A stretch of DNA of 36,873 nucleotides, taken from NCBI GenBank assembly GCA_022599915.1, contig JAHZLH010000032.1:1-36873 (forward strand), read 5' to 3'. Source of the DNA: Actinomycetes bacterium. Lineage in GTDB: Bacteria > Actinomycetota > Actinomycetes > S36-B12 > GCA-2699445. Below are positions 15,579-36,873 of this stretch, piece after piece. The position numbers and the translations under genes were made by a program. A model generated the notes under the pieces. That model saw only the letters and a list, made by a program, of their open reading frames with translations, did no database searches and had not been told where the DNA came from. Each line of letters opens with the position of its first letter. Position 1 is the stretch's first letter.

Positions 15579-15971
15579 TCGTCAGTACCGAAGTTCGGCA
15601 CCCAGTGATGATGTGCCCTTCTAGGACCGAATCGCTACATTTCTGCGACATAAGTGAGATAGAGCACCATTGCGGAATCCGTGGAAAACCTGACCCCTGA
15701 CGCTTCGTGCGGAGACACGACCCCGCATTCACGCTCAAATGCAGGCTCTTTGGGGCACGAATGGAGTAATGGTTACTCTTCGTGGTGCTTTTACTGCGAA
15801 AACAGCTGTTTGCGTGACATTCGATTACCGAACATGTCGCACGTATGTCGCAGCCATGTATCAGTTCGTTGCCACGCAAGTCAGTCGATGATCGCGAGTT
15901 AGGTGGTTAGGCGGCCTGCAGTCGACCCGTTCGTGCCACCCCGCCAAGTCCAAGTCTCAACGGCGACCGGC
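15579..15971. other. Intergenic region without a recognised gene
   Basis: About 390 bases between the M15-like gene and rnpB, AT-richer than its surroundings. Short open frames exist on both strands but show no domain, good start site or codon bias. It probably contains the promoter of the secreted peptidase. Confidence 0.5.
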
Positions 15972-16357
15972 GGACGAGTCGGTCTGTAAGCCGGATTCTG
16001 TCCCGGTTGCCCGGGGGCGACCATCCATCTGCGACTGCCGTTGCCGGCAGCCTGATGCAGCCCACCCGCGAACTCGGGCGGGCAGCCCTCAATCGTTCGC
16101 GCAGCCGACGCCAGGCGCCGACCTCTTGGCCTTGCTCCAGGTGGGGTTTACCAAGCCGCCCGGGTCACCCCGGCCGCTGGTGGTCTCTTACACCACCGTT
16201 TCACCCTTACCGCCCGAAGGCGGCGGTCTATTCTCTGTGGCACTGTCCCGCGGATCGCTCCGGATGGGCGTTAGCCATCACCCTGCCCTGGGGAGTCCGG
16301 ACTTTCCTCGATACTTCCGCTAGGCAGAAACATCGCGGCCGCCCGACCGACTCGTCC
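15972..16357 (-). ncRNA. rnpB: RNase P RNA (bacterial type A)
   Basis: Catalytic RNA that matures tRNA 5' ends. On the minus strand the conserved block GAGGAAAGTCCGGACTCC lies at about 16292-16309 near the 5' end and ACAGAATCCGGCTTACAG near the 3' end; together they form the P4 core. The ends are set by helix P1: ACGAGTCGG at about 16347-16355 pairs with CCGACTCGT at about 15974-15982. Other RNase P landmarks are GGGTGAAACGGTGGTGTAAGAG and GGTAAACCCCACC. The length of about 386 nt is normal. Confidence 0.95.
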
Positions 16358-22309: not shown

Positions 22310-23686
22310 TCAGTGGCGAGTACGGAACTTGATTCGAGCGACATTGCCAGTGCCCTCAAGATTGATCGCCCGCACCTTGACCCGATATCTCGTGCCTGGT
22401 TTCAGTCCGCGGTAGACCAACCGGTACTGACCGAGGCGACGTGTTTCCAGATCCGCCGCGGGCGCACCGGTCCAACGTTGCCAGCGCTTACCTTCCTTCA
22501 TGCGAGCGTCATAGCCAATAATCTCCGAGGTCCCAGCGTCCTTCGGTGCGCGCCACTTGACGATGACGCGCTTGCGCTTGGCTCGGGCCTTGGACCGGGT
22601 AACCCGTCCGGGTAACTGGGCTATTGGTGGCGCAACTGGCTGTGGGGCAACCACCGGCTGCGGATCTACCGGCTGCGGTGTGGGCGTGGGCGTGGGTGTG
22701 GGCGTGGGTGTGGGTGTGGGTGCTGGTGATTGTCCGGAGTTCTCGCTGATCCAGTCTGTGTAGTTGGTGACGCGGGTGTAGACACCGGGGTAGCTCGGAT
22801 CGGCGCAGCCGTATCCCCAACTCACAACCCCGGCCAGGGCATAGGTCCCGTTGTTGTTCACTGCCAGCGGCCCTCCGCTGTCACCCTGACAGGAGTCCTT
22901 CGTGGGTGGGGTGAGGTAGCCCGCGCACAACATGGTGGTGTTCAGGTATTCACTGCCCCAGGGATCTGGGTAGGAACCGCAGGATGCATCCGCCGGATTA
23001 GTCAGCACGTCCACTGTCGCTGCCTGCAGTTGCGCAGGGAAACTCGACCCGTTGGTGGCGGTATTACCCCAACCACTGACTAACGCCGAAGTGCTCGCAG
23101 CAGGCCAACCCGCCCCCAGTACCGCCGGGTCCGGGACCGCAATCGCCTGCTTGGTGGTGCCATCCAGCGTCAACGGCGCGGCTAGTTCCAACAGTGCAAT
23201 GTCGTTGTCCGTCGTGGCCGAGTTGTATCCGGAGTGCACCACAACTTGCGACACCTCGGACCGGGCGACGTTCGGAGAACCCAACGTGGTGATACCTGCA
23301 CCAACCTCCACCGACGCAGGACTGACCGCTGCCCCAGTGTTGCCCACCACGCAATGAGCAGCGGTAATGATCCAATCCACGCTCATGATCGAACCACCAC
23401 AAAACTGTGCGTTGTAATCGTCGTTCGGCACGCTCGCGTGCAACAACGCCACCTGCCACGGCGCCTGATCAACCGTGATCGGTTGCCCATTAATGATCTT
23501 AGTCGAGACACGTTTGTATGGGTCGTCGGCGGCTTGAGCCGATACGCCCAGCGAGCCCAGTAGTAATCCGGCAACCACACCGACAGCCACTGCTAAACGT
23601 CGCGTGACGGCGGAGCCGCGCTGGTGACTCGAGGGGTAACGGGCGTACACATTTCGAGCATGGGCATTCGGTCCCGATTCAGCCAC
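22310..23686 (-). CDS. Secreted trypsin-like serine protease with Fn3-like tail
   Basis: A 458-residue exported S1 peptidase. Signal peptide (about 29-52, LAVAVGVVAGLLLGSLGVSAQA), mature start near KIINGQPI (a trypsin IVGG-like N-terminus after a short propeptide), His111 in TAAHC, Asp162 in DNDIALLEL, Ser270 in CQGDSGGPL. Asp264, six residues before the Ser, predicts Arg/Lys specificity. A Pro-Thr repeat linker (about 322-338) leads to a very basic Fn3-like domain (about 360-458). No ribosome site identifies the start; GTG at 23650 is an alternative to 23686. Confidence 0.92.
   Translation of the reverse strand: MAESGPNAHARNVYARYPSSHQRGSAVTRRLAVAVGVVAGLLLGSLGVSAQAADDPYKRVSTKIINGQPITVDQAPWQVALLHASVPNDDYNAQFCGGSIMSVDWIITAAHCVVGNTGAAVSPASVEVGAGITTLGSPNVARSEVSQVVVHSGYNSATTDNDIALLELAAPLTLDGTTKQAIAVPDPAVLGAGWPAASTSALVSGWGNTATNGSSFPAQLQAATVDVLTNPADASCGSYPDPWGSEYLNTTMLCAGYLTPPTKDSCQGDSGGPLAVNNNGTYALAGVVSWGYGCADPSYPGVYTRVTNYTDWISENSGQSPAPTPTPTPTPTPTPTPQPVDPQPVVAPQPVAPPIAQLPGRVTRSKARAKRKRVIVKWRAPKDAGTSEIIGYDARMKEGKRWQRWTGAPAADLETRRLGQYRLVYRGLKPGTRYRVKVRAINLEGTGNVARIKFRTRH
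22676..22727. repeat. Hexanucleotide repeat coding the Pro-Thr linker
   Basis: About eight units of GGGTGT / GGGCGT lie inside the trypsin gene and encode alternating Pro-Thr. As each unit is six bases, gain or loss would change linker length without frameshift. Confidence 0.8.
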
Positions 23687-29459: not shown

Positions 29460-29608
29460 TAGTCCCCGAACATCGGAGTGGCAGCCCGCGGGTTTCAGAC
29501 GACATGGCGATCATCTAGTGAGGACCGGGAACGAAAATGGGAGTGTCGACTAGCGTCGGCTACATGAAACCGGATCGAGGCCTGAGAATCCCCTCTTAAG
29601 GCTCTTCG

Positions 29609-29645
29609 ATCGCCCTACACCTCACGTCGTGGTGTGGCGATTTTC
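29609..29645 (+). terminator. Rho-independent terminator
   Basis: ATCGCC ... ACACC, loop, GGTGT ... GGCGAT followed by TTTTC. Good stem and T run on the plus strand, downstream of the MoaF-like gene. Confidence 0.7.
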
Positions 29646-29742
29646 TGCACTAACTGTTGTTACAGGTACCAGCCACAATGAGACCCCGTTTTAGCATGGT
29701 CTTAACCACCTCAGCACCTGGCTTCTGCTCATGCGGTCCTGA

Positions 29743-31470
29743 CTATCCAGTTCCGGGGATACGGCAGCGCTTCTTTGGCTGATTCTTTACTTTCCACGAC
29801 CGTGACCACTTCTCGGGTTGGGCCCCCAAGAAGTCGGGGAACTTAGCCACGACTTTGGCAGTAAAGGTCAGCCCAACCGTACAACTCGGCTTGATTCTTA
29901 TCGCCTTGCTGCCGGCTGTGCTCTCGCGGCCCTTGCCCTTCTTCTTAGTGATGTCGCAGTTAATCCGCTCGGCTTTGCCGGTTAACCGTTTGCCCTTGAG
30001 GAAACACTTCGCTTTTATCTTCGTCAGTTCGCCGTCAGTGCCTTCCCAGTTGACGATCTGGGTCCGCTTCATGAACTTAATGTCTTTACTCGCTTTCCGA
30101 GCATCCACAATCAGATAAGGCTTGCGAGGTTTCGGAGTTGGGTTGGGAGTAATAGTCGGCGATGGCACCGGTGCGGGACTTGCCGTCGGGCCCGCCGTCG
30201 GATTTACCGGAGGCACAAAGGGTGGCGGCGGGTTAAACGGAATGATGGGGATGATGACGCTGAGACCGTACCGGCGAACAGAGTTTTGGATCTCTTGCAC
30301 GCCAGGATCAGGTATCTGAAAATCTGAATTCGATACCCACAGTCCGCCATTGGGGTCGAATGCGACCGAACCTGGATCATCGATCAAAGTATTGGGCCCG
30401 ACAATGCGAAGGATGGGCTGCGGGTTGTCCGGCCAATAAACGTTCACGGCGTTCGGTTTGGTGTTTGCCACCCAGATGCTGTACGGCTGTTGTAGCTGGT
30501 CGGAACCTGGGCCGATCGTAATGCCTTCTGGTGTGTTTAGACCGGTGCCGGCAGTGCCAGACAACGTCGTCGCCTGGCTGAGGTTGCCTGTGAGCGCGTT
30601 GCCGCGATAGCTCTGCAAAGTCCCGTTTGAGCCAGAAATCCAGAAGGTCGTATCAGTCAATGTTGAATCAGGGACGATAGCGACGCCCCACGGCCGTGAA
30701 GGCACATTACTCGTTGAAGCCGGATCGAGGACCCAGTCAGGCTTTTTGTTGATAACGCCATTGCATCCGGTGACGTTGAACGCCAGGATTTTATTCTCGT
30801 TTCTTGAGCCCTGATTCGGTCCTGGGTTGGCAACCAGAATCACGGTTTGACTGGAGTCGGGATGCACCTGAATCTGTTTCGGATCACCATTTTGTCCGAA
30901 CAGTAGACCTGTCTTGTTCCCAGTGACCTGACAATCGGGCGTGAGGACTTTTGCCGTGTCGCCTCCGCTTAGCGGCAACTGGGACTCGGCGAGCCGCAGT
31001 AACCCAGCATTTTCGGTACCAACCCAGAGATTCCCAGCGGCGTCAAAACTTAATCCCAGCGGTCCTTGGACACGCGTATAGGGGAACTTCACTGCATTCT
31101 TGTTGATTTTGATGGTCGCGGTGGGTGGTTGATTCACCGATCCAAACTGTTGCTGCTCCCCGTAGCTGTACATGGTGATTGATTCATAATCTTGGCGATT
31201 ATTAGCGACCCAGAGATTTCCATAGCGGTCAAAGGCCATGCCATATGGGGCGTTAAGGCCGGTTTGATCATCAGCGAAAGCCCCGACAAAACTGAGGTTA
31301 GGCGCAATGTCCTCGTCGTCCGCCTGTGATGCAGGTGTTCCCACGAACATCACCAGGCTGGCGGCGAGGAGCGAGACGATAGCCATCAAGGCCCAGATGA
31401 TCCGCAACTCCCCTACACTGCGCTCTCGACTCGATGTTGTCGTGGTTTTCGATGGCGTCAGCGGATTCAT
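29743..31470 (-). CDS. Secreted NHL-type beta-propeller protein
   Basis: A 575-residue exported protein. Signal/anchor segment (about 23-50, IIWALMAIVSLLAASLVMFVGTPASQA), then propeller-type repeats such as LNAPYGMAFDRYGNLWVANNR, GPLGLSFDAAGNLWVGT, PWGVAIVPD and DPGSVAFDPNGGLWVSN. A Pro/Thr linker (about 405-445) leads to a basic C-terminal domain with four Cys (CFLKGK, CDITKKK, CTVGLTF, CRIPG). No catalytic residues are seen; probably surface binding. Similar in layout to the broken genes at 20538 and 31560. Confidence 0.82.
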   Translation of the reverse strand: MNPLTPSKTTTTSSRERSVGELRIIWALMAIVSLLAASLVMFVGTPASQADDEDIAPNLSFVGAFADDQTGLNAPYGMAFDRYGNLWVANNRQDYESITMYSYGEQQQFGSVNQPPTATIKINKNAVKFPYTRVQGPLGLSFDAAGNLWVGTENAGLLRLAESQLPLSGGDTAKVLTPDCQVTGNKTGLLFGQNGDPKQIQVHPDSSQTVILVANPGPNQGSRNENKILAFNVTGCNGVINKKPDWVLDPASTSNVPSRPWGVAIVPDSTLTDTTFWISGSNGTLQSYRGNALTGNLSQATTLSGTAGTGLNTPEGITIGPGSDQLQQPYSIWVANTKPNAVNVYWPDNPQPILRIVGPNTLIDDPGSVAFDPNGGLWVSNSDFQIPDPGVQEIQNSVRRYGLSVIIPIIPFNPPPPFVPPVNPTAGPTASPAPVPSPTITPNPTPKPRKPYLIVDARKASKDIKFMKRTQIVNWEGTDGELTKIKAKCFLKGKRLTGKAERINCDITKKKGKGRESTAGSKAIRIKPSCTVGLTFTAKVVAKFPDFLGAQPEKWSRSWKVKNQPKKRCRIPGTG

Positions 31471-31559
31471 GTGTCATTTACTTTCAGTCGAGACAAAAGA
31501 TAAAATACTGGGTTTTCGAATGGGTCTCTAGAGTTCACGCAAGTATTGGTCAATCGAAC

Positions 31560-32035
31560 TAGGGGCAATGACATTTCACCTCTGCAAAACACAGCGACCC
31601 AAGATGTGAGAACAACAGCCCGTCGCTTGCTGGGGCCAACGGTTACCGGGTCCTTGGCACGAACCTCTACGACGTATTTGGTGCCCGTTTGCAGACTCTT
31701 TCCGGGTTTCAGTCGCTTCCAGGTGTGACTGAATTAATTACTCCCTCTGCCATTGCCTGGATTAGTGACGTAGGCGAACTTCCCATTCGGTGCGATAGCC
31801 ACTCCTCATGGCTCTCGACCCACCGTCACGGTGACTATTTGATTCAACTAAGCAGCAATCACGGTCAGTGAACCTGGACCGGTTTCGTCGCCTCGGTTGG
31901 TTGCATCAAGGCATTTGCCATTGGGGCCCACCGCGATCCCTCGTGGTTGGAGTCCGACGTTGTTGATCGTGGCTGCCACGGACTTTGTGCCGGAGTCAAT
32001 GAGCGCTGTAGATGAGCGGAGCGATTTGGGAGGGT
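31560..32035 (-). pseudogene. YVTN beta-propeller / Fn3-like pseudogene with three stops
   Basis: One frame reads TALIDSGTKSVAATINNVGL, QPRGIAVGPNGKCLDATNRG, then LNQIVTVTVG, GVAIAPNGKFAYVTNPGNG, and finally the Fn3-like LKPGKSLQTGTKYVVEVRAKD. It holds three in-frame stops (TAG, TGA, TAA). The TGA stands where the sister repeat has CGA (PRGIAVGPNG versus P*GVAIAPNG), a single C-to-T change. No start codon or signal peptide remains: the 5' part is gone and the fragment abuts the end of the delta-60 gene. Confidence 0.75.
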
Positions 32036-32050
32036 AGACGCAACGTGCGG

Positions 32051-33325
32051 CTATCGGATCTTGGTCCTGACGGTGGTGGCAGGCCCGGGAGCCACATCGT
32101 TAACGGCTCGGACCTGAATCTTGACCTTGGTTCCCCGTGGGTACGTGCGCAAATTATTGACTTTCTGTGTCATCCGGGTGACCCCTGCGCCACTGCCGAT
32201 GGTGCGCCACGGACTCCATTTCGCTGATGCCTTTTCTCCCAATTTCTTGGACTTGGCCTTGATCCGGAAGTCGTAGCTGGTGACTGCGGCACCACCGTCC
32301 TCGGCTGGCGCTTTGATCGTGAGTAGATAACTCCGCTTGCTCTTGCCTTTGCTCTTGCCGGTCTTCTTGACCTTGATCTTTGCCTTGGCGACCTTGCCAG
32401 GGGCGGTCGCTACCGGCGGCGTCGGACCCGCGACCGGCGGCGGACTCGGGGCCGGCGGTGGAATGGTGGCAGGTGGCGTAGGAGCCGCGGGCGGCGGACT
32501 CGGGGCGGCGGGAGGTACCGCAGGTGTCACCCCGGCGGACACGCTCGACGCCACTGATGTGCCGGCGGCGTTTATGGCGGTGGCAGTGAAGGTGTAGCTC
32601 GTGCCATTAGTCAGGCCCGTGACAACGCACGACGTCGATGTCGTCGTGCAGGTGGCCCCACCCGGGGAGGCAGTCGCCGTGTAGGACTTGATCGCTGCGC
32701 CATCATCAGATGCTGGCGCGCTCCACGACACCGTTGCCTGGCCGTTGCCGGCAGCAGCGGTTACGCCGGTCGGTGCTCCAGGAGGTGCGACAGACCACAG
32801 CCGCGCCACCCGGTCGATGTTTGGGTCGCCACCGACATTGGTAATGCCGCCCCCGATCAGGTACTTCCCACCGGTGAGCTCCTTGGCGGAGTAGACCGGG
32901 CCGTTCAGGGTTGGCGGGGTGAAGGAGGTGCCCCGGCTGCCATCGGCATTCAACCGCGCCACCTGATTGGTGAAGCTCCCCCCAATCAGATACTTCCCAT
33001 CACCAAGCTCGGCAACGGCATAGACCAGGGCATTCACGGCCGGCGAGGTGAAAGAACCGTCACGGGTGCCATCAGCGTTCAATCGCGCCACATAGTCGGT
33101 ATTCGCGTCACCACCAGCATCGGTGAAGCTCCCCACGATCAAATACTTCCCATCATTGAGCCCGGCAACCGCTTCGACCGAGCCGACCCCTGCAAAGGTC
33201 GGTGGCGTGAAGGAGTCGTCGCGGGTGCCATCGGCGTTCAACCGCGCCACGTAGTCGGTATTCGCGTCACCACCAGCATCGGTGAAGCTCCCCCAATCAT
33301 CGGCTGATGTCACCGTTATTGCCAC
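32051..33325 (-). CDS. Delta-60 repeat / Fn3 secreted protein, 5'-truncated
   Basis: About 424 codons. The N-terminal third has delta-60 repeats (DGKYLIVGSFT ... YVARLNADGTRDDSF, about 53 residues each). Then a clear Fn3 domain (about 183-268, PGAPTGVTAAAGNGQATVSWSAPASDDG ... TATAINAAGTS), a Pro/Ala linker (about 270-305), and a basic Fn3-like tail with SYDFRIKAKSKK and KWSPWRTIGSG. No signal peptide: repeat homology starts abruptly at about 33294, and the GTG start at 33325 adds only unrelated codons. Probably a 5'-deleted remnant of a surface protein. Confidence 0.75.
   Translation of the reverse strand: MAITVTSADDWGSFTDAGGDANTDYVARLNADGTRDDSFTPPTFAGVGSVEAVAGLNDGKYLIVGSFTDAGGDANTDYVARLNADGTRDGSFTSPAVNALVYAVAELGDGKYLIGGSFTNQVARLNADGSRGTSFTPPTLNGPVYSAKELTGGKYLIGGGITNVGGDPNIDRVARLWSVAPPGAPTGVTAAAGNGQATVSWSAPASDDGAAIKSYTATASPGGATCTTTSTSCVVTGLTNGTSYTFTATAINAAGTSVASSVSAGVTPAVPPAAPSPPPAAPTPPATIPPPAPSPPPVAGPTPPVATAPGKVAKAKIKVKKTGKSKGKSKRSYLLTIKAPAEDGGAAVTSYDFRIKAKSKKLGEKASAKWSPWRTIGSGAGVTRMTQKVNNLRTYPRGTKVKIQVRAVNDVAPGPATTVRTKIR
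33093..33134. repeat. Direct repeat, copy A (42 bp)
   Basis: Identical to 33252-33293 and 159 bases away (53 codons, one delta-60 unit). Identity at DNA level suggests recent duplication within the repeat array. Confidence 0.8.
33252..33293. repeat. Direct repeat, copy B (42 bp), at truncation point
   Basis: Identical to 33093-33134. Homology to the delta-60 family ends right at its upstream edge, so it marks the likely deletion breakpoint. Confidence 0.75.
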
Positions 33326-33455
33326 GGTTAGCGGGCATCAGGAGCAGTGCCGCCACATCTGCGAGTTCCTGTCGCGACAACACCAGGCCCGCCGGCACCA
33401 CGTTTCCTATCCAGAGACGAGCAAGCGACCCCAGGCAGCCGATAGCATCACAACT

Positions 33456-33794
33456 ATGTCCTCACGCAAGACTGCAGCAGCCGACGACAGGTCCTGGTTG
33501 GGAATGATCACCGTTGCCAGCGTAGCTCTGCTCGCCGGTTTCCTGCTCACAGGTTGCAACGCCCAGGACCAGCAAGCGGAAGCAGCCTGGCGACAGATCG
33601 ACTTGGAACAAGGGTTATACGGTTCGTCGCCATGGCGTTACTGCGACCTTCGTAACGGCAAGCCAAAAACCCCAGAATCCCCTCGGTACTTTCGCCTAAC
33701 TGCAGAGGAGAACGGTTTCATGCTCAGCCAAGAAGAAGCGACAGACTGGCTCGATACCGTTTGCACCTACCGCTGGTGGCGAGAAATCGGCTGA
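33456..33794 (+). CDS. Small putative lipoprotein
   Basis: A 112-residue protein with a lipoprotein signal peptide: a polar, basic N-terminus, hydrophobic core (about 19-31) and lipobox LLTGC. The mature part is acidic and Trp/Tyr-rich (WRYCDLRNG, TDWLDTVCTYRWWREIG) with two further Cys. No family recognised. The start is the ATG at MSSRKTAA; the open frame upstream only runs through non-coding sequence. Confidence 0.65.
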   Translation: MSSRKTAAADDRSWLGMITVASVALLAGFLLTGCNAQDQQAEAAWRQIDLEQGLYGSSPWRYCDLRNGKPKTPESPRYFRLTAEENGFMLSQEEATDWLDTVCTYRWWREIG

Positions 33795-34125
33795 CAGGGC
33801 CTTGACCCGGGCTACTCCCCTGACTACACCTTCATCGGTGGGGCTCGAGTTCCCTGCCGCCGTCTACAAGACGAATCCGCCCGCCCCTGGTGTGCGGGCC
33901 CATGACCGGCCAATACGTCGAAATCGGCGGCGGCCATAAGCGACTGCGAGTCAGGAGAGGCCCCTGCGGTCTCCCGTCTTGCGGCTGCTAGTTGGAGTAC
34001 TGGTCAGTCAGGCGACGCAACCCAATCCCCAAACCGGGGATGCTCCAAGTCGCAGTCGACAGCCTGGAGGGTGGCTGCCTCTGCGACGGTTATGACCGCG
34101 ACTCCGTCCGATACCGGCCGAAACA
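33795..34125. other. Gap with only short ORFs
   Basis: No recognised gene. A 29-codon ORF at 33902-33991 (ending RRGPCGLPSCGC) is followed in the same frame, after its TAG, by the 45-codon ORF at 33992-34129. A small hairpin ATCCCC/GGGGAT lies near 34025-34041. Possibly decayed phage sequence; no tRNA or attachment-site repeat was found. Confidence 0.4.
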
Positions 34126-34129
34126 ATGA
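33992..34129 (+). CDS. Small ORF coupled to the HNH-protease gene
   Basis: From TTG, 45 residues including NPIPKPGMLQVAVDSLEGGC. The TGA overlaps the ATG of the next gene by four bases (ATGA), the pattern of a translationally coupled pair. Unrecognised; the weak start and the immediately preceding in-frame stop argue it may be residue of a longer gene. Confidence 0.3.
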   Translation: MEYWSVRRRNPIPKPGMLQVAVDSLEGGCLCDGYDRDSVRYRPKQ

Positions 34130-34944
34130 CCGGCCGCCAATGGGGAGGAAGACGAGCACAACGAATCAGACAACAATTCAAACCATTGATCGAAGCGTGC
34201 GAAGTGGTCTGCCACTTCTGCGGCCGCCTCATCATCCCCGGCCAACGATGGGACATCGACCACATCGAGGCACACGCCAACGGCGGCGGCGAACGCAACT
34301 ACATGGAAAGATTCACCACACAAACATTCAAAGCATCCGTGACCCGAGGCGCAGGTAAACGCGCACCACTGCTCACGTTGCATAACTACAAACAGTTCCC
34401 CGTTGGTAAACCAATCGAATGGGACATCCAACCCGACGGACTGTGGTGCAAGTGGCAGCTCGATCTGAAATCAGAAGCCGGTGCCGAAGCATTCCGGCAA
34501 GCCGACGAAGGCTTCGTCACAGGCCTATCGGTTGGCTTCGCTGCCGGACCCGAAGACCGCGTCGAAGAGATCGACGACCAGTTGCATGTCACCCGAGGCC
34601 CAGCCGAACTACGCGAAGTGTCACTGGTATCCGTACCCGCATACGCAGACGCAACAGTTGAAGCCACCCGAACAGCCACACCACCCAGCAAGAAACCAAC
34701 AGGCAACCTATCCACCAGACTCCGACAACTGAAAGCAAAACAAATAAGCGAACGGGTACTCCTCGCACGGCTAGGACCAGAAGCACGCGCCGACTACGAA
34801 CGAATCACACTCCAACGCTTCCACAAAGAATGCGCTGGACTCCTGTACCAAGGCGACCAGTTGCGGCTCAACGGTGACGGCAGCTTCACGCCATACGGAC
34901 CCAAACGGACACTCATCGCCAAAGCCCTCGACCTCGGACTGTGA
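34126..34944 (+). CDS. HNH (half) / HK97-type prohead protease fusion
   Basis: 272 residues. The N-terminus (about 23-58) is the first half of an HNH nuclease: CHFC, then DIDHIEAHANGG and the Asn of the motif. The usual second half with CxxC and NxxK is absent. Directly after, from about Met60, it reads as a caudoviral prohead maturation protease (peptidase U35/S78): LHNYKQFPVGK with the catalytic His86, FVTGLSVGF with Ser135, and LREVSLVSVPAY. Such proteases trim capsid scaffold during head assembly, so this gene is phage-derived. The C-terminus after about 180 is unmatched. Met60 could be an internal start for the protease alone. Codons are A/C-rich, unlike the neighbours. Confidence 0.7.
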   Translation: MTGRQWGGRRAQRIRQQFKPLIEACEVVCHFCGRLIIPGQRWDIDHIEAHANGGGERNYMERFTTQTFKASVTRGAGKRAPLLTLHNYKQFPVGKPIEWDIQPDGLWCKWQLDLKSEAGAEAFRQADEGFVTGLSVGFAAGPEDRVEEIDDQLHVTRGPAELREVSLVSVPAYADATVEATRTATPPSKKPTGNLSTRLRQLKAKQISERVLLARLGPEARADYERITLQRFHKECAGLLYQGDQLRLNGDGSFTPYGPKRTLIAKALDLGL

Positions 34945-35156
34945 CCACACCACCCCAACATCACAGAAAGTAACCAAAACCAGACGAAAACCAGCACACC
35001 CGTTTTTTGTAGCATGCATGCAAGACCTCGAACTCCCATGAATGAAATAAATCCCCCACACAGGATCGGGGTTCTGGGGCACATCAATCGGGTGGCTACG
35101 CAGAGTGATGGGGATGGCTGGTGGATGGCAGTAGTTGGCTACAGGATTGGAGCGTT

Positions 35157-36536
35157 GTGAAGGTTTGCAGCATTGACGGTTGTGATGGTGTGCATTACGG
35201 CCGCGGCTGGTGTCATCGCCATTATCAGCGGTGGCGTCGGAATGGTGATCCGTTGGCAACGGTTCGGCTTGCGCGTGGTGAGGTGGTGGTTTGTCGGGTT
35301 GATGGTTGTGATGGTGAGCACCGCGCACGGGGGTGGTGCGTTGAGCACTACAGCAAGTGGCGGAATTATGGTGATCCGTTGTGGGTGCGTCAGGTGGAGG
35401 TCTGCAGCATTGACGGCTGCGATAGCAAGCGTGATGCGCGCGGGTGGTGCAAGAAACACTACCGGCGGTGGCAGAAGTTCGGTGACCCGTTGAGGTCATC
35501 GGGGTATCAGTCGCGGGCTGGTGGTTGTGGCGTTGACGGATGCACCCAGCCGGTGATTGCGCGCCGGTTATGTCGTACCCACTACAAGCGGTGGAAGAGG
35601 TACGGCGACCCGTTAGGCAAAGCTGAACCCCCACCGGTCAGGTTGTGCGCCATTGACGGATGCGGCAACGCACATAAGGCGCGGGGATGGTGCCAGAAGC
35701 ATTACAAGGAACTTCATCACTCGGGGTCGTGCGCCATCGAGGGATGCGGCAACGCACATAAGGCGCGGGGCTACTGCAATAGGCACTACGGCCAGTGGCG
35801 CGAGAAAGGACCGTGTGCGGTGGATGGATGCAACCGGAAACAGAATGCGAAGGGCTACTGCAATAAGCACTACAGGGAACTTCGGGACCCTGGGCCGTGC
35901 AGCATTGACGGATGCAACGGTAGGCAGACTGCACGCGGCTGGTGCTTCAAGCACTACATGAGGTGGAAGAACCACGGCGACCCCGAGACAACGAAAGTCG
36001 GAACGCGACCCGACAACGAAACCCCAACGTGGACCTACCTCATCCGGCACGACGGGCACGGGCTGATGAAGGTAGGCATCGGATTAGACGCACGACTAAA
36101 GCAATGGCAGAAGCGCGGATGGAGGGTTGTGGTGGCGGTGAAACCGGAGCGGCAGGACGCTGCAGCGGTTGAGCGGTTGATTTTGGGTTTGTGGCGGGGT
36201 CAGTTTGAGTTGCCGCCAGTTGATAAGGCGATCCAGCCGGAGGGGTTTACGGAGATGGCGGCGTTGGATGTTGATGCGTTGGCGGCTGCTGCGATGCAAC
36301 TGACGCGGTTCGTGGGTCGGGAGACTGTGACGGCGCCGGATGTGTATTTCGCTCGTTACGGGATAGCCCTGGATCGTGGCGCAGGGTGCGGCTATGCGTT
36401 TTCGATTGTTGGCCAGTGTTGTTGCTGCGGGTGGTTTGACCGCGAGTATGTTGTTGGCGCCCGCGGTGGTGTCCGCGGACCAACTGGGAGTGATCGGCAA
36501 GAAGGACAACACGTGTGTGCTAGACCGGGGGGCTGA
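35157..36536 (+). CDS. Eight-zinc-knuckle array fused to GIY-YIG-like nuclease domain
   Basis: About 459 residues from a GTG preceded by GGAG. Eight tandem modules C-x4-C-x9-C-x2-H-Y, mostly followed by an RW-GDP-like motif, occupy about residues 4-275; the first is CSIDGCDGVHYGRGWCHRHY. Then WTYLIRHDGHGLMKVGIG and DARLKQW ... AAVERLILGLWR (about 291-350) resemble a GIY-YIG fold: TYL for GIY, KVGIG for YIG, an Arg in the next helix and a Glu further on. Likely a mobile-element DNA-binding nuclease. The last 48 codons overlap the next gene's signal peptide in another frame and look non-native. An ATG at 35121 is the alternative start. Confidence 0.75.
   Translation: MKVCSIDGCDGVHYGRGWCHRHYQRWRRNGDPLATVRLARGEVVVCRVDGCDGEHRARGWCVEHYSKWRNYGDPLWVRQVEVCSIDGCDSKRDARGWCKKHYRRWQKFGDPLRSSGYQSRAGGCGVDGCTQPVIARRLCRTHYKRWKRYGDPLGKAEPPPVRLCAIDGCGNAHKARGWCQKHYKELHHSGSCAIEGCGNAHKARGYCNRHYGQWREKGPCAVDGCNRKQNAKGYCNKHYRELRDPGPCSIDGCNGRQTARGWCFKHYMRWKNHGDPETTKVGTRPDNETPTWTYLIRHDGHGLMKVGIGLDARLKQWQKRGWRVVVAVKPERQDAAAVERLILGLWRGQFELPPVDKAIQPEGFTEMAALDVDALAAAAMQLTRFVGRETVTAPDVYFARYGIALDRGAGCGYAFSIVGQCCCCGWFDREYVVGARGGVRGPTGSDRQEGQHVCARPGG
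35658..35686. repeat. 29-bp direct repeat in finger array, copy A
   Basis: Identical to 35742-35770, 84 bases (28 codons) away; fingers 5 and 6 share GCGNAHKARG. Suggests recent duplication of a finger module. Confidence 0.8.
35742..35770. repeat. 29-bp direct repeat in finger array, copy B
   Basis: Identical to 35658-35686. The period equals one finger. Confidence 0.8.
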
Positions 36537-36873
36537 TTGCCGCGGCGTTTCGGCGAAATATGAGGCGGAGCACCACGGGAATCTGACGGGAGCGAACTTC
36601 AGTAACGCGAAACTGCACGGCGCGGATTTCCGTGGCGCCGATCTAACTAAAGCCAAAGGCACCTACGCCAACCTGAACCACGTGCAGGCGCATGGCGCGA
36701 AACTGCCCGGCGCGAAACTGCAAGGTGCCAGCCTGAAACATGGCCAGTTTCCTGCAGCGGACTTATCCAAATCCAAGTTCGGGCCGGTTAAGAAGGCAAA
36801 ATCCAAAGGTCGGCAACTACGAGCCAACCCCGGATGCGGCAAGAAATGTAAAGGTGCGGACCTGTCCAACGCG
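36394..36873 (+). CDS. Secreted pentapeptide-repeat protein (partial, runs off window)
   Basis: The frame is open from ATG at 36394 to the window end (160 codons). Signal peptide MRFRLLASVVAAGGLTASML then LAPAVVSA-DQ. After a short region with two Cys (NTCVLDRGADC) come pentapeptide repeats of the A(D/N)LxG type: LTGANFSNAKLHGADFRGAD, KLPGAKLQGASLKHGQF, and a final GADLSNA. Pentapeptide repeats form a right-handed quadrilateral beta-helix; the export signal argues for a surface or extracellular role. It overlaps the finger-array ORF by 143 bases in another frame. No good ribosome site precedes the ATG. Confidence 0.8.
   Translation, partial: MRFRLLASVVAAGGLTASMLLAPAVVSADQLGVIGKKDNTCVLDRGADCRGVSAKYEAEHHGNLTGANFSNAKLHGADFRGADLTKAKGTYANLNHVQAHGAKLPGAKLQGASLKHGQFPAADLSKSKFGPVKKAKSKGRQLRANPGCGKKCKGADLSNA

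Follow-up and report, generated by a model that had tools for sequence, protein, structure and literature searches.

A probable non-functional remnant of a YVTN beta-propeller gene at a rearranged actinobacterial locus

Gene content of the window and the flanks of the relic

The window analyzed here is the whole of contig C32 (36,873 bases), which belongs to a genome (G000) of 2.44 Mb in 75 contigs with an estimated completeness of 98.65%. The genus sample consisted of three genomes, i.e., G000 itself, G001, and G002; another genus of the same family was represented by G003, and the order-level search covered 166 genomes. The window carries a pirin gene (Pfam) with 83% identity to its nearest named match, in a Candidatus Nanopelagicales MAG; going by this one gene, the source is probably an uncultured actinobacterium close to that group. 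The window also contains, on the minus strand at 15971–16354, the RNase P class A RNA, the sole Rfam match over the whole window, with no match at the relic described below. The stretch 34126–36873 is phage-like: a gene for an HK97-type prohead protease with weak HNH matches is followed by a protein with repeated matches to HNH-endonuclease families, and a pentapeptide-repeat frame is cut by the contig end. PADLOC, run on three genes of the window, returned no match, and promoter and terminator scans over 29500–34000 did not rise above the chance level.

The feature under study is a frame on the minus strand at 31545–32039 in which a fragment of a YVTN beta-propeller pseudogene precedes a fragment of a tail module, as judged by the single reading frame and by similarity. 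It is wedged between two propeller-like genes of the same strand. Downstream of it lies an open frame of 575 amino acids (29743–31470, minus strand) for a propeller of the Reg_prop/NHL-like type, whose C-terminal module is a different one. In Pfam, Reg_prop scored above the cut-off and NHL under it. An orthologue with 59% identity is present in G002, and a scan of genome contigs for which the 575-aa protein served as the query turned up no relative. The end of this gene (window 29746–30165) corresponds to a second C-terminal module, common to a YVTN gene on contig C63 and many proteins of the family.

Upstream of the relic, domain matches and a relative on contig C52 identified a 424-aa delta-60 (DUF5122) propeller with an fn3 domain and the tail module (32051–33325, minus strand). 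This gene itself appears 5'-truncated, since the 642-aa C52 relative is longer at the N-terminus: the similarity stops at about 33292, the frame opening just before, and the relative has at its start a signal-like segment (recognized by eye) and additional blades, while no signal-like N-terminus is visible in the delta-60 gene. Two repeats that are 89% alike (33038–33134 and 33197–33293) lie near the truncation, and the truncated gene close to this repeat pair may represent a second decaying gene or an assembly join.

Blades, stop codons, and tail fragment of the relic frame

Reading through the relic on the minus strand from position 32039 gave ...QPRGIAVGPNGK... and then ...EPXGVAIAPNGKFAYVTNPG..., where X stands for a stop. 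The read-through with X at the stops scored 37 bits against the NCBIfam YVTN repeat model TIGR02276 (cut-off 27.85, E = 2.5e-9) and so passed the curated score for membership of the YVTN repeat family. When TIGR02276 was run over the genome, one of the two blades was found in place with 25.4 bits, under the cut-off; Pfam gave a single weak NHL match (E 0.027), also under its cut-off. Against a 68-blade model, built without the loci of the window, the relic in the right frame reached 40.0 bits, the best of 1000 dinucleotide shuffles read in six frames scoring 8.3. The two partial blades were placed at 31752–32020 (minus strand) by two TIGR02276 stretches and by tblastn with the YVTN proteins of the order, the start of the homology varying from relative to relative; they end near 31750.

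The blades are followed by a tail fragment of about 43 residues (31617–31745, minus strand) which the initial annotation had missed. It corresponds to positions 62–104 of 110 in the model of a C-terminal fibronectin-III-like tail module, i.e., to the last part of that module, and contains one TAA. The tail model scored 34.5 bits here (E 4.5e-8) compared with 11.1 for the best of 1000 shuffles, in a test that used a model of four sequences. The sequence expected between the last blade and the tail fragment is missing. The similarity of the relic to YVTN blades and to the tail module is far beyond chance.

Within 39 codons, the frame holds three different stop codons, all read on the minus strand: TAG at 31848–31850, TGA at 31806–31808 directly after a blade proline, and TAA at 31734–31736 near the junction of blade and tail. 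The list of open reading frames of at least 100 amino acids had no entry over the relic on either strand. The earlier reading of this segment as a YVTN-propeller relic with in-frame stops was thus borne out by the model score, the shuffle controls, and the three stops themselves, and so was the loss of its 5' half. The alignments of YVTN proteins mostly start at 32045–31930, just past the stop of the upstream delta-60 gene (32053–32051); the exceptions are two alignments of L033 that reach 32060 and 32096, inside the delta-60 gene in another frame. The relic lacks the start, the signal peptide, and most blades, as well as the beginning of the tail module; instead of a closed propeller in an open frame it offers about two partial blades and three stops. 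The G+C content differed little between the three codon positions of the relic (0.58/0.53/0.57 for 31590–32039) and more between those of the 575-aa gene (0.54/0.48/0.62) and of the delta-60 gene (0.58/0.61/0.71), which is a weak sign of decay.

At E <= 1e-5, the relic matched 26 of the 166 genomes of the order, including G000 and G001 (the latter by the tail only), the best match besides the relic itself having E = 4.4e-9. Aligned by tblastn with the intact YVTN-repeat proteins of the order, as the initial annotation had proposed, the relic matched them over its blades and lacked the start and most of the blades that they possess; L032, for instance, has six motif blades. Relatives of the blades exist in open frames in the order, and every listed order match save the relic was free of stops. 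The relic thus combines homology to intact genes with disabling lesions, as a pseudogene does. It resembles the YVTN family (TIGR02276) in its two blade fragments and differs from it in the stops, the missing start, and the number of blades.

A living gene expressed by stop-codon recoding or readthrough would account for the roughly 130 codons over which the frame has been kept with stops inside. Its probability is nevertheless practically negligible. A recoded gene would be expected to use one type of stop consistently, with conservation in relatives, whereas three different stops would all have to be recoded here, which makes recoding very unlikely; it was rejected on the presence of the three kinds. 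Moreover, irrespective of how the stops are read, the loss of the start, the signal peptide, most blades, and the initial portion of the tail leaves the gene dead. Six further stop-containing matches were examined, a seventh (on G114:C171, with two TGA codons) lying outside this set. In five of the six (L084, L085, L086, L088, and L089) the stop falls at or next to the module end, as an ordinary gene end would, and the TAG of a tail match on contig C48 is likewise the end of the gene. The sixth, L087 of G003 (contig C18, near 73587–73550, minus strand), has a single in-frame TAG that separates a propeller-like frame (474 codons) from a C-terminal module (148 codons) in the same frame. This TAG could be a recent nonsense mutation, an error in the sequence, or a case of readthrough; it is one case, a lead that speaks against a wholly clean picture.

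Relation of the relic to neighboring and related genes

The initial annotation placed a dead gene between two members of the same family and ascribed it to tandem duplication and decay. The dead gene stood up to scrutiny; the flanks as YVTN-type genes did not, as they encode a Reg_prop/NHL-like and a delta-60 propeller. That the three genes are adjacent, on the same strand, and all propeller-like, and that the delta-60 neighbor shares the tail module with the relic, would suit a tandem duplicate that subsequently decayed. The adjacent gene should then be the closest relative, and, judged on similarity searches, it is not. With the relic as a query, its own genome yielded matches on contigs C63 (1.2e-7, 32.6 bits), C69, C52, and C9, and neither flanking gene was matched at E <= 1. 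Pairwise BLASTP gave just 22.7 bits with the delta-60 gene (E 0.013), through the common tail module, and 21.6 bits with the 575-aa gene (E 0.032); a tail of G001 reached 42.4 bits. The search spaces of these values and of the 32.6 bits on C63 differ. As the tail module occurs at 22 places in G000, its presence in both the relic and the delta-60 neighbor is weak evidence of local duplication. With propeller types that differ and closer relatives elsewhere, descent from a neighboring gene by tandem duplication is very improbable, and the proposal was abandoned.

The closest gene of the same genome lies at contig ends, on C69 (31636–31914) and C63 (52045–53041), and seems to be one YVTN gene split over the two ends, a break that its repeats probably caused during assembly. 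The relic resembles the C63 part, with 40% identity over the blades. Unlike the relic, this gene has an open frame and carries, after the blades, an fn3-like part and the C-terminal module of the 575-aa gene in place of the relic's tail.

The TGA had been assigned to a CGA-to-TGA change from the comparison of two neighboring repeats, PRGIAVGPNG and P*GVAIAPNG. The two blades had been aligned correctly; the assignment, on the other hand, could not be upheld. Among 69 blades retrieved with a motif pattern (which dropped blades without the motif and took in several NHL-type repeats as well as one motif from the window's 575-aa gene), the proline was followed by R in just 10, by Y in 8, T in 6, and I in 5; F, N, Q, E, A, W, and G occurred 4 times each, V, K, and L 3 times each, and D, S, and M once each. 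Four blades from C69 and C63 of the same genome have A, A, V, and Y at this position, and a similar motif of the 575-aa neighbor reads PWG. A TGA is one step away from codons for R, W, G, L, or S. Neighboring blades of one propeller are non-orthologous positions, and hence a CGA origin is not assignable. CGA is a possible ancestral codon, arginine being the commonest residue there.

Neither of the two other genus genomes examined yielded a corresponding locus with three intact paralogues, which had been suggested earlier as a check. In G001, a close orthologue of the 575-aa gene is absent: there were four matches, the best with E = 6.8e-10, all within residues 388–570. In G002, the orthologue is preceded by a different gene, presumably for a peptidoglycan-binding-like protein. 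The relative of that gene in G000 (62%) is located on contig C69, which shows that the gene order differs. The 2.49 kb upstream of the G002 orthologue contain neither the relic nor the delta-60 gene, and TBLASTX at this locus revealed, outside the 575-aa gene, two short segments of 11 and 26 residues that were taken as chance. In both G000 and G002, a 15-base match (14/15; E 0.059 in a small search) lies a short distance upstream of the 575-aa gene; it may indicate that the gene's own promoter region was kept and that the rearrangement took place further upstream.

Origin of the relic and the modular propeller family

Altogether, the relic is very likely an ordinary non-functional remnant of a YVTN beta-propeller gene at a rearranged locus. 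Its ancestral protein was probably secreted, and the relic itself very probably yields no product, as far as this can be read from the sequence. Truncation plus nonsense mutation is an established route to bacterial pseudogenes, and the relic is alike in its lost ends, internal loss, several stops, and similarity to live paralogues, with nothing distinctive about it. Deletions would have taken the start, the signal peptide, and most blades, as well as the segment from the last kept blade to the end part of the C-terminal tail module, the three nonsense codons closing the frame. The remnant lies at a rearranged junction, immediately downstream of a delta-60 propeller gene whose 5' part seems to be lost as well. 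This would be decay by deletion and point mutation within a modular, multi-copy propeller family. Literature searches on Nanopelagicales propellers and on YVTN beta-propeller pseudogenes offered nothing that bears on this case, the papers returned by the latter concerning Geobacter sulfurreducens.

We infer that the blades and the tail come from one gene, since both fragments stand in a common frame and follow each other as they would in a single protein. The C63 gene of G000, with its YVTN blades ahead of an fn3-like part and a C-terminal module, provides a similar architecture. However, no gene combining YVTN blades with this tail was found, so that the fragments may derive from two genes whose frames happen to agree (a chance of 1 in 3). 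The blade model (E <= 1e-4, without a positive control) matched none of 30 loci that were drawn from 47 tail matches and extended some 1.5 kb to either side of the tail, and the TAA lies near the junction. A YVTN fragment and an unrelated tail fragment joined by deletion would still make a pseudogene, with a different history; we consider this unlikely, though it deserves real weight.

The relic is known from one assembly of 75 contigs, and repeats of propeller genes could have been misjoined to produce it. The 89% alike repeats close to the delta-60 truncation and the YVTN gene apparently split between C63 and C69 are in line with such an artefact. Misassembly would not, in contrast, create three separate stops, and this explanation is highly unlikely.

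By itself, the relic matters little, as one pseudogene of a multi-copy family. It carries two cautions: the codon from which a nonsense mutation arose cannot be pinned down by comparing the blades of one propeller with each other, and adjacent propeller-like genes are not necessarily recent duplicates. The tail module may merit separate study. At E <= 1e-5, it was matched 22 times in G000 (relic included), 17 times in G001, and 6 times in G002, and in five other genomes of the family it occurred once each in G005 and G006 and not in the other three. Three of the matches fall in the window, at 22313–22612, 32066–32341, and, in the relic, 31617–31745. Its carriers include delta-60 and trypsin-type proteins and, we assume, Kelch-like ones. 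The module is hence frequent in the genus and rare in the rest of the family, and it may be a surface-attachment or sorting domain. In the genus, it sits on several kinds of probably secreted proteins. The relic might even be one unsuccessful outcome of a continuing process that shuffles propeller heads onto this tail, in which case the locus would capture modular recombination and not plain decay, a reading that we hold as tentative and distinctly unlikely.
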